NCBI GenBank assembly: GCA_944324255.1
Contig: CALUVM010000001.1
Span: 1 to 64,000 of the forward strand
Direction of reading: 5' to 3'
Length of the DNA stretch: 64,000 nucleotides
Origin: Candidatus Gastranaerophilales bacterium
Lineage (GTDB): Bacteria; Cyanobacteriota; Vampirovibrionia; Gastranaerophilales; Gastranaerophilaceae
The notes below the pieces were generated by a model. That model did no database searches and had not been told where the DNA came from. It saw only the letters and a program-made list of their open reading frames with translations. The translations under genes and the position numbers were made by a program. Of this stretch, positions 56,806 to 60,305 are shown in pieces. Numbering within the stretch: position 1 is the first letter of the stretch; each line of letters starts with the position of its first letter.

Positions 56806-57486
56806 ATGAATGATAGATTTGTAGAAGTTTATACCGGTGCTTATGCAAGCGGAAAATCTGAAACAGCATTGAACAGAGCTTTGCAGTTTTCAAAGAAGGG
56901 TGAAAAAATAACCCTTGTAGATTTAGATACTGTTGAGCCTGCATACACGCTTCGTCCGATTGCAGGCGAACTTGAAAAATTAGGTGTAAGCGTTATTACC
57001 CAGCCGGACAGCTTCGGGCTGGGCGAGGCTGCGAGTTATATAACTCCGTTGCAGATGAACTGTCTGGCTCAGGAAGGAAATATTATAATTGATGTCGGAT
57101 ACGGTGCCGGAGGGTTGGATATTCTGGATATCGTTACCGGAATTGAAAAAGAGAAGAATTTAAAGATTTATATAGTTATAAATACGGCGAAATTTGAAAC
57201 TTCAGATAAAGAAAGTATTATTGATTATCTTAAATTTTCAGAGGGTGAGGTAAAACGGGAATGGAAGAAGTTTTCCGGAATCATTTCAAACACTCATCTC
57301 GGTGATGAAACCACAAAAGAAGATGTGATTAAAGGATATGAAAAATTAAAAACGGCAGCTCTTGAAGTCGGATTGCCAATAATTGCAATAGGTGTAGATT
57401 CCGGAATTAAAGATAAATTCGATGATACATATGACGGAGTTGATATTTGGACCTATAACCGTATGATGCCAAAGGCTTTGTGGTAG
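56806..57486 (+). CDS. P-loop ATP-binding protein of unknown function (226 aa)
   Basis: The N-terminus VYTGAYASGKSETALNRAL holds a Walker A motif, followed by a VDLDTVEPAYTLRP switch-like segment and IIIDVGYGAGGLDILD as a Walker B-like strand. This layout resembles the MinD/CobQ-type SIMIBI class. The rest has VINTAKFETSDKE, typical of a nucleotide-base contact. No partner is evident. It probably has a leaderless mRNA and is isolated between two non-coding hairpin regions. Confidence 0.8.
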   Translation: MNDRFVEVYTGAYASGKSETALNRALQFSKKGEKITLVDLDTVEPAYTLRPIAGELEKLGVSVITQPDSFGLGEAASYITPLQMNCLAQEGNIIIDVGYGAGGLDILDIVTGIEKEKNLKIYIVINTAKFETSDKESIIDYLKFSEGEVKREWKKFSGIISNTHLGDETTKEDVIKGYEKLKTAALEVGLPIIAIGVDSGIKDKFDDTYDGVDIWTYNRMMPKALW

Positions 57487-57524: not shown

Positions 57525-57552
57525 TTGATAAATTTCAAAATTGTATTATAAT
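57525..57552 (+). promoter_or_regulatory. Promoter of the zinc-ribbon/RGG-like gene
   Basis: TTGATA (57525-57530), 16-base spacer and TATAAT (57547-57552). The predicted leader is about 110 bases, the longest in the window, and carries a CGGTTG-TTTTT-CAACCG hairpin at 57562-57578 followed by a T-rich stretch. Confidence 0.6.
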
Positions 57553-57668
57553 ATACATGTTCGGTTGTTTTTCAACCGTTGTTTTGATTAAATCTCATAT
57601 TATTACTTTATTTGATAGGATATTTAAGACTTAGTGAAATTTTTTATTGTGGTTAAGAGGCTTTTATT

Positions 57669-58604
57669 ATGTATGTAAACAAGTGCATTAAATGTGGTGC
57701 TGAGTTTGAGACAAAGAACCCCAAAAGAGTTATTTGCCCTAATTGCTTGTACGCAGATAAGGGAAATGAATCACCGGAAGAGAAACCTTTGCAGAGTTAC
57801 AGTTCTTATTCTGCAGAACCAAGACCGAGAAGTTATGACAGACCATCTCAGGGCGGTTATAGAAGTAACTACTCCAGAGATAATAGAGGCTCTCAACAGG
57901 GCGGTTATCAACGCCGGGATAACAATAACCGCAATTTTCAAAGGCGCCCTGACGGCAACAGAGGGTTTAGAAACAATTATGCAAGCGGTTCAAAAGGCGG
58001 TTTTCAGCAAAAACGTGCTAATAAAAGACCAAAACCGCAAAAGGCTGCTAAACCTTTATTAATTAGTAAAGAACAGTTAGAACAAATTGAAGTATTATAT
58101 AAAGCCATGCTTCCTTTGCCAAATCCTGATGCGCATGAAGTAATCGGGGCTAAATTAGGTATTGAACCTCAAAAAGTATTCTTCGGTATCAATCTTGTGC
58201 GTCAAAAAATGATGCTGCCAAAACTACCGTTCCCTAAACGTAAATTGGCAATTTCGCCGGATCAGTTAATGGCAATTAAGAGCTTGTATGAACCTCTTTT
58301 ACCATTACCTCCTATCGGGTGTCATAAAATCATTGCGGCTCAGCTTAAAATGGATGAGTGGCGTGTCCACGTCGGTATCAAACTCGTTCGTGCCCAGTTA
58401 GGTCTTGAAAGATGGAATGAAGACAGAGCTGATAAGCCGGCTGATTATATGGTAGCAAAACACGAAAAACAAGAGAAGCTGCCGGAGAAAACAGAAGAAA
58501 GTGCTCCTGAAAATTCAGCTCCGTCTGTAGAGGATATACAACAAGCTGAAGATGAAAAGCCGAAACGTGGAAGAAAACCTAAAAAGCAAGAAGATGAAGA
58601 ATAA
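57669..58604 (+). CDS. Zinc-ribbon, Arg/Gly-rich protein with duplicated helical module
   Basis: I do not recognise this 311-residue protein. It has a four-Cys zinc ribbon (CIKC at 6-9, CPNC at 23-26), then a disordered Arg/Gly/Tyr/Asn/Gln-rich part (about 44-125) like eukaryotic RGG boxes. Two copies of a ~52-residue module follow, at 132-183 and 195-246 (both (I)S..QL..I..LY...LPLP...). An acidic tail ends in KRGRKPKK, like an AT-hook. The composition suggests RNA or DNA binding. AAGAGG precedes the ATG; it overlaps rimM by 11 bases. Confidence 0.85.
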   Translation: MYVNKCIKCGAEFETKNPKRVICPNCLYADKGNESPEEKPLQSYSSYSAEPRPRSYDRPSQGGYRSNYSRDNRGSQQGGYQRRDNNNRNFQRRPDGNRGFRNNYASGSKGGFQQKRANKRPKPQKAAKPLLISKEQLEQIEVLYKAMLPLPNPDAHEVIGAKLGIEPQKVFFGINLVRQKMMLPKLPFPKRKLAISPDQLMAIKSLYEPLLPLPPIGCHKIIAAQLKMDEWRVHVGIKLVRAQLGLERWNEDRADKPADYMVAKHEKQEKLPEKTEESAPENSAPSVEDIQQAEDEKPKRGRKPKKQEDEE

Positions 58605-59106
58605 TTTTGTATCTGTAGGTAAGATTCTTAACTTCCATGGAGTGCACGGTGAAGCTAAGCTCGGATATTCTAAAAATCGTGAGGATTTTTTGTCCAAGCT
58701 CAGGGAAGTCTATGTTCAAGAAGACAATCAGTATACTTCCTTAGAAATTCAAAATATAAGGTTTACTCCAAAATGTGCAATTATAAAATTTAAAGGAATT
58801 GATTCTTTAAACGATATTTTAATGTATAAAGGAAAACTCCTTTTTGTATCAGAAGATGCTGCAAGAGAATTTTTGGAAGAAGATGAATTCTTAATAGATG
58901 AGCTTGTGGGGCTGGATGTATATGACGGAGAAACAAGGGTCGGTTCGGTTGTAGGTGTTTCAAATAACGGGGCGAGTGATTTATTATCGGTCAAAACTCT
59001 TTCTAAAAATATCTCTCTGGTTCCGTTTGTTAAAGCTATTGTTTTATCTGTCGATATAAAATCAAGACGGATTCAGATAAATAATATTGAGGGATTGCTT
59101 CAATGA
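58594..59106 (+). CDS. rimM: Ribosome maturation factor RimM
   Basis: RimM binds S19 and helps fold the 16S rRNA 3' domain. The 170-residue protein opens with VSVGKILNFHGVHGEAKL and has the C-terminal PRC-barrel (DELVGLDVYDGETRVG). The ATG at 58594 lies inside the end of the preceding gene and is chosen over one at 58552 since the family begins here. It overlaps trmD by 4 bases. Confidence 0.93.
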   Translation: MKNNFVSVGKILNFHGVHGEAKLGYSKNREDFLSKLREVYVQEDNQYTSLEIQNIRFTPKCAIIKFKGIDSLNDILMYKGKLLFVSEDAAREFLEEDEFLIDELVGLDVYDGETRVGSVVGVSNNGASDLLSVKTLSKNISLVPFVKAIVLSVDIKSRRIQINNIEGLLQ

Positions 59107-59789
59107 GGTTTGATGTTTTAACTCTTTTTCCTGAACTTATTCAATCCCACATGGATTTCAGTATAATGAAACGTGCTTCTGACAGCGGAATTATTGACGT
59201 TAGAACTGTAAATCCCAGAGATTATTCTCATGATAAACATAAAAGAGTTGATGACACTCCCTATGGGGGAGGAGCTGGCATGGTATTAGCTCCCCAGCCT
59301 TATGTGGAAGCCTATGAAGATATTGAAAAACTTGATAATTCAATAACTTTAATGATGACTCCTCAAGGAGAACCTTTTACAGATAAAATTTCAAATGAAC
59401 TTTCTAAGTATAAACAAATTATAATACTTTGCGGACACTATGAAGGTTTTGATGAACGAATCAGGGAGATTATAACCCCCCGTGAAATTTCTATAGGTGA
59501 TTTTGTGCTGACAGGAGGAGAGCTTCCGGCTTTATGCTTAATTGACAGTGTTTCAAGAAAAATCGAAGGGACTCTCGGTAAAATAGAATCCGCTCACGAT
59601 GACAGCTTCTCGGATGGTTTATTAGAATATCCCCAGTATACAAAACCTCGTGAATACAGAGGCTTGAAAGTCCCTGATGTTTTATTGAACGGAAATCACA
59701 AGCTTATTGAAGAGTTTAGATTCCAACAAAAAATAGAGCGAACTAAAAAAAGACGTCCTGATTTATGGGAAAAATATAACAATAAATAA
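59103..59789 (+). CDS. trmD: tRNA (guanine-N1)-methyltransferase
   Basis: TrmD methylates G37 of several tRNAs to prevent frameshifts. The 228-residue SPOUT protein has VDDTPYGGGAGMVL, the SAM knot LCGHYEGFDERI and the C-terminal YPQYTKPREYRG. rplS and rpsP, often next to rimM-trmD, are absent. It ends where a convergent unknown gene ends. Confidence 0.96.
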   Translation: MRFDVLTLFPELIQSHMDFSIMKRASDSGIIDVRTVNPRDYSHDKHKRVDDTPYGGGAGMVLAPQPYVEAYEDIEKLDNSITLMMTPQGEPFTDKISNELSKYKQIIILCGHYEGFDERIREIITPREISIGDFVLTGGELPALCLIDSVSRKIEGTLGKIESAHDDSFSDGLLEYPQYTKPREYRGLKVPDVLLNGNHKLIEEFRFQQKIERTKKRRPDLWEKYNNK

Positions 59790-60305
59790 TTATTTCTTTT
59801 CTCCATATTGTCGGGAAAGATTTTCAATAGCTTCTTCTTTCAGACGGCATTCTCTCTCATAAGTTTTCATGGTTTCATAATCGCTTATAAGAAGCTGGTT
59901 TCCCATCTTTTCGTCCAGTTTTTCTATTATTTCAGTCAAAGCCGGAACTTCATTGCTATCTTTTAACCTTGAATATGCAAGTTGAGCTTCTGCAGAATTT
60001 ACATAATAAATAGCATCTTTTTTTTCGGCACCATTATTTAAAAAAAGTAAATCTATACTTTTTGAATCCGGTTTATGAGAGATTTCTTTTAGTGTTTCCA
60101 ACGTATTAGAACATCTGCCGGCAATCTTCATACCATCCCCATCGACTTTTAAATTTAAAAATAGGGTATCTTTTAATCTTTCTCCTGATTTTCTGAGTTC
60201 TTCAAGTGTTTTCATATTAGCTTTTTCTTGCAAAAACTTCTTTCCTTCCGGAGTTATGACTAATGCCATTCCGAAATTTGGACCTTGAACCTTATTAATT
60301 TGCAT
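59790..60305 (-). CDS. Unknown protein (171 aa)
   Basis: I do not recognise it. It is a charged, helical, soluble protein beginning MQINKVQGPNFGMALVITPEG, with no cysteine cluster, signal or membrane segment; AAGGAG precedes the ATG. It lies 11 bases downstream of the uridine-kinase-like gene on the same strand. The C-terminal half looks like a coiled coil (YETMKTYERECRLKEEAIENL). Confidence 0.75.
   Translation of the reverse strand: MQINKVQGPNFGMALVITPEGKKFLQEKANMKTLEELRKSGERLKDTLFLNLKVDGDGMKIAGRCSNTLETLKEISHKPDSKSIDLLFLNNGAEKKDAIYYVNSAEAQLAYSRLKDSNEVPALTEIIEKLDEKMGNQLLISDYETMKTYERECRLKEEAIENLSRQYGEKK

Follow-up and report, generated by a model that had tools for sequence, protein, structure and literature searches.

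What kind of protein is encoded by the gene at 57669..58604 (+), whose end runs into rimM, and does its place beside rimM and trmD point to the ribosome or do its domains point elsewhere? The gene was taken from the ORF list of the window (the whole stretch of 64,000 nucleotides analysed here) and is conserved across the order. Its 311-residue product is made up, from N- to C-terminus, of a zinc finger, a disordered tract, two copies of a module and a charged tail. A preliminary description had called this architecture unusual, and no family in Pfam, NCBIfam or PHROGs claims the protein above threshold, nor does any PDB sequence match it; the parts are of known kinds in a new combination. A literature search on the protein itself, or on homeodomains in Melainabacteria, found nothing. 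It is an undescribed, strongly conserved core protein of gut Gastranaerophilales, without an assigned family.

The zinc finger (residues 1-32; 57669..57764, +) has the pattern CX2C-X13-CX2C and is predicted to form a beta-hairpin and a helix, with pLDDT of about 90. Its putative zinc ligands, C6, C9, C23 and C26, are invariant (alignment A5). The disordered tract that follows (residues 33-129; 57765..58055, +) is rich in R, G, Y, N and Q and was delimited by composition (R 15%, S 12%, G 11%, N 11%, Q 9%; net charge +14) and by pLDDT below 50 at residues 37-118. The protein had been described as zinc-ribbon/RGG-like; the finger and the disordered tract are present, but as the tract contains no RGG triplet and only two RG dipeptides, 'RGG-like' is a loose label. 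GGY/GGF motifs are a recurrent feature of the tract among relatives, where its length ranges from 92 to 223 residues. In one relative (L142:1078-1376) a 48-bp tandem repeat (6.2 copies, 90% match) lies within the R/GGY tract, which implies that the low-complexity tract can lengthen by repeat expansion. The F/YGG motifs in the Tyr/Gly-rich disordered region of hnRNPA2 bind both RNA and DNA (PMC9067507). The disordered region of the window protein is likewise Tyr/Gly-rich but, unlike hnRNP-type tracts, it comes with neither an RRM domain nor RGG triplets. Binding of RNA through this tract is possible.

The protein ends in a disordered charged tail (58461..58601, +) with an AT-hook-like KPKRGRKPKK at 58557-58586. 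The core of the canonical AT-hook is RGRP. The proposal of an acidic tail with an AT-hook-like end stood as far as the charged tail is concerned, but the canonical, HMGA-like core is absent from the tail of the window protein, which has RGRKP, once, in its place; among 114 family members RGRKP occurs in 80 and RGRP in 9. A bacterial analogue of this tail is seen in CarD of Myxococcus xanthus, a regulator whose disordered acidic tail with RGRP AT-hooks has been termed HMGA-like (PMC4374960). The CarD tail differs in having four RGRP motifs, and its folded part, the N-terminal RNA-polymerase-binding domain CarD_CdnL_TRCF, gave no match in a Pfam scan of the window protein.

Between tract and tail lie module 1 (58056..58223, +; helices 134-147, 155-163 and 167-182) and module 2 (58245..58412, +; helices 197-210, 218-226 and 230-244). 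From their starts at residues 130 and 193, the two copies can be aligned gap-free along 56 residues with a score of 104 (z = 18.7; 5000 shuffles gave a mean of 22.3, sd 4.4 and maximum 53), and their profiles match each other with E = 2.6e-15 (hhalign), confirming the duplicated helical module of the preliminary description. AlphaFold2 predicts three helices for each. The full-length model is confident for the modules and the zinc finger and not for the tract (37-118) or the tail (265-311), and in the second AlphaFold2 model the module pLDDT is mostly 83-92. Both modules are predicted to fold as three-helix helix-turn-helix (HTH) domains resembling a homeodomain.

Several comparisons lead to this assignment. 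When 18 diverse tandem modules were scanned alone, 14 matched Pfam Homeodomain (PF00046), the only recurrent family, and one relative's isolated module exceeded the cut-off (27.9 vs 22.9 bits). The window module itself reached 19.2 bits, below the curated cut-off of 22.9; scanned alone, the module had no NCBIfam match and no strong PHROGs match. No whole genome of a relative gave a PF00046 match above cut-off, and weak matches to this family also turned up in 10 of the 14 control genomes, so sequence similarity by itself does not prove a homeodomain. A profile search of the PDB returned two chains only, both homeodomains (E 0.2 and 1), and hhalign of the two-copy profile against eight homeodomains gave 47% probability and P = 2e-4, which is suggestive only. 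The best Foldseek matches were the DUX4 double homeodomain, at the top, and tandem engrailed, with probability about 0.9 at best. VIA-align superposed a single domain on a paired homeodomain over 56 of 58 residues (Z 5.9, rmsd 2.7); with the second model the HTHs of phage small terminase and Lrp tied with homeodomains at Z about 6, and a structure search of viral proteins returned generic HTH-like matches only. The predicted helices and the structural matches thus agree with a three-helix homeodomain fold at the level of prediction, with other HTH folds tied in Z. The earlier view that the module is unlike known families holds insofar as nothing matches the window protein above threshold, but it missed the resemblance to the homeodomain-like HTH fold.

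Helix 3 of homeodomains carries the hallmark residues W48, F49, N51 and R53. In the alignment, positions 48, 49, 51 and 53 are Gly, Ile, Leu and Arg in both copies, so that R53 alone is kept. Because W48 and N51 are absent, replaced by Gly and Leu, the modules are not homeodomains proper, and a true homeodomain was rejected for them. The Arg at position 53 is invariant in both copies, and copy 1 has Asn and Lys at positions 50 and 55. Position 47 is Phe or Val and position 51 Leu, and with these hydrophobic residues the surface that helix 3 contacts might be protein and not DNA. Hydrophobic residues at positions expected to face DNA would suit a partner-binding scaffold, a reading we consider rather unlikely, in which the HTH pair and zinc finger would serve as docking sites for RNA polymerase or some other protein and condensates would form through the disordered parts, with little direct recognition of DNA. 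The variable length of the tract, and its partial make-up from a tandem repeat in one relative, would also fit a scaffold, but tract and modules are strongly positive in net charge, which, together with the Arg conserved in helix 3 of both copies, speaks against it.

Two known systems help to place the HTH pair. The window protein shares with DUX4 and other homeodomains a predicted tandem three-helix fold, the top Foldseek matches and a weak Pfam similarity (model positions 2-46 of 57); it differs in the absence of W48/N51, a loop one residue longer, the zinc finger and R/GGY tract placed in front, and its bacterial origin. Cbp1 is an archaeal CRISPR-repeat-binding protein with duplicated HTHs that coat DNA (PMC10883916; PDB 2lvs). 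It is likewise prokaryotic, with duplicated HTH domains, and is among the Foldseek matches to the window modules, but it has three HTHs and binds CRISPR repeats, and the likeness noted is at the level of structure. The HTH prediction makes a role on DNA or in transcription more plausible, and one in ribosome assembly less so. With moderate confidence we favour a core protein, specific to this lineage, that binds nucleic acid, most likely as a DNA-binding factor associated with the nucleoid or with transcription; nucleic-acid binding would involve DNA more likely than RNA.

The gene, whose absence from relatives would have told against the preliminary description, was found in 186 of 192 genomes of the window's order, including all those of good quality (182/182). 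Matches across GTDB that are named with a lineage are mostly from Gastranaerophilales. Elsewhere in the class, the three families f9, f14 and f15 have homologues with module identities of 61-71%, and none was found in families f8 and f10-f13 when a profile was also used; the profile search of class members initially without a match gave weak fragments only. In a 386-genome sample of the phylum, matches were confined to the gene's own order and one f9 genome, and no module matches were found in phages, plasmids or IMG/VR viral contigs. Within the family the median identity to the window protein is 100% for the zinc finger, and the modules are 92% identical, against 76.5% for RimM and 81% for TrmD. 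This greater conservation of finger and modules points to a core function. Two loci that carry a close homologue (L063 and L079) are from MAGs titled 'uncultured Acinetobacter sp.', whose gene content suggests mislabelled Gastranaerophilales bins.

The gene is followed by rimM (58594..59106, +; Pfam RimM domains, in a listed ORF that begins upstream at 58552) and trmD (59103..59789, +; Pfam PF01746). If rimM starts at the possible ATG at 58594 it overlaps the end of the gene by 11 nt, in agreement with the overlap already noted; the alternative in-frame ATG at 58552 would give a longer one. In the gene's own family rimM is directly downstream in all 138 loci with enough downstream sequence (138/138, some genomes being counted twice). 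By contrast, the 20 stretches examined from other families in the order or class, some of them short contigs, yielded nothing related to the window's rimM next to the gene. The neighbours in those families, read from sequence, are presumably serine dehydratase, D-Tyr-tRNA deacylase (dtd), gatB-like, glmS-like, gyrB-like and other genes. The suggested check of whether the gene always adjoins rimM came out positive for its own family but not for the others examined, and the constant rimM-trmD linkage that membership of that operon calls for is confined to the one family. The rpsP gene of this genome sits on a different contig (C7:51586-51756), apart from rimM-trmD.

This linkage bears on a second alternative, which we regard as possible but somewhat doubtful: that the protein is an RNA-binding factor of ribosome biogenesis or translation, whose zinc finger and R/GGY tract would bind rRNA or tRNA and whose HTH pair would be an RNA or protein platform. 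The overlap with rimM and the unbroken gene-rimM order in the 138 informative loci fit such a factor as well as they fit a DNA-binding one, but in the loci sampled from other families the gene has no rimM beside it, and the predicted fold is that of DNA-binding HTHs; both points argue against such a factor. Restricted to one family, the linkage is weak evidence for a role on the ribosome. The ribosome assembly or RNA handling proposed in the preliminary description is thus retained as a possibility, with the predicted fold favouring DNA or transcription; a role in ribosome assembly itself is conceivable, with weak support.

The leader with a hairpin, also noted previously, is present and conserved in the family. 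A promoter-like TTGATA-16-TATAAT (57525..57552, +; 11/12 matches in a consensus scan) is kept upstream of family relatives, and a conserved leader element (57556..57671, +) was defined by an alignment of 24 leaders (A4) and a sequence model. The element consists of a short hairpin, ATCTCAT...TGATAGGAT...TAGTGA, and then TTAAGAGGCTTTTATTATG at the start codon. The hairpin, CGGTTG-TTTTT-CAACCG (57562..57578, +), lies near the 5' end of the leader and its complementarity is kept in most relatives, the arm variants CG/CG, GA/TC, CA/TG and AA/TT all remaining complementary. The mean longest leader stem is 7.2 bp vs 5.9 in shuffles, which is modest support; RNAalifold returned no pairs on the leader alignment because the hairpin is misaligned, so support for the hairpin comes from per-sequence inspection and is likewise modest. 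The segment TTAAGAGGCTTTTATTATG, which includes the ribosome-binding site and start codon (57653..57671, +), is unusually conserved, strongly so across 82 unique family sequences, and no other TTAAGAGG..ATG site in the genome matches it exactly. In five of the six members of the genus, the leader model matched each genome strongly at a single place (E 5e-11 to 1e-20), the next-best matches having E above 0.01; the sixth member, without a strong match, is an 83% complete genome. No Rfam family matches the leader, and a shared upstream ORF within it was rejected, its reading frame not being kept. Conservation of the leader was established within the family, and relatedness is claimed for the family leaders only.

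A private, conserved leader that is strongly matched just once in a genome is what autoregulation would lead us to expect, and the protein probably controls its own gene through this dedicated element, either as a DNA operator or as mRNA. If the protein is the RNA-binding ribosomal or translation factor considered above, the leader would be bound as mRNA in a feedback of the ribosomal-protein type, in line with the strongly conserved start region of the mRNA and the complementary changes in the hairpin.

For the favoured DNA-binding reading we count the tandem HTH prediction, the homeodomain matches, the conserved R53, the charge of the tract together with its GGY motifs, the conserved leader, the presence in every good genome, and modules more conserved than RimM and TrmD. 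Against it we count the weak homeodomain scores, the replacement of W48/N51, the hydrophobic positions 47 and 51, a VIA-align Z of only about 6, a tail that is not a canonical AT-hook, and the family-wide rimM linkage. On the DNA-binding reading, the two homeodomain-like HTH domains would hold nucleic acid, the R/GGY-rich tract and basic AT-hook-like tail would supply further contacts, multivalent and of low specificity, and perhaps promote condensation, and a partner or a second nucleic-acid site would be docked by the zinc finger; bound to the conserved leader, the protein would keep its own production in check. A bolder version, which we think improbable, is a bacterial chromatin-like protein, in which the tandem domains and hnRNP-like tract would condense on the nucleoid or nascent transcripts throughout the order, and the domains would be a bacterial branch related to eukaryotic homeodomains. 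Throughout an order of bacteria from human and animal guts, the protein is universal, very strongly conserved and not assigned to any family. Should it bind DNA, Gastranaerophilales may have in it a main nucleoid or transcription factor, and it would offer a natural bacterial pairing of HTH domains with an R/GGY low-complexity tract, useful for testing tract-driven condensates in bacteria.

Finally, some flanking genes were noted. Directly upstream of the gene's promoter, the window encodes a 226-residue P-loop protein (56806-57486) with CbiA/ParA-like similarity below the Pfam cut-off, and at 59790-60305 (-) there is a 171-residue ORF without a family above threshold. In f9 and f15 a gene pair (~225 and ~295 residues), divergent at several loci, is found beside the homologue; the loci with such a pair are L170, L171, L173, L174, L175, L177, L178 and L179, and we take the pair at L170 to resemble serine dehydratase subunits.
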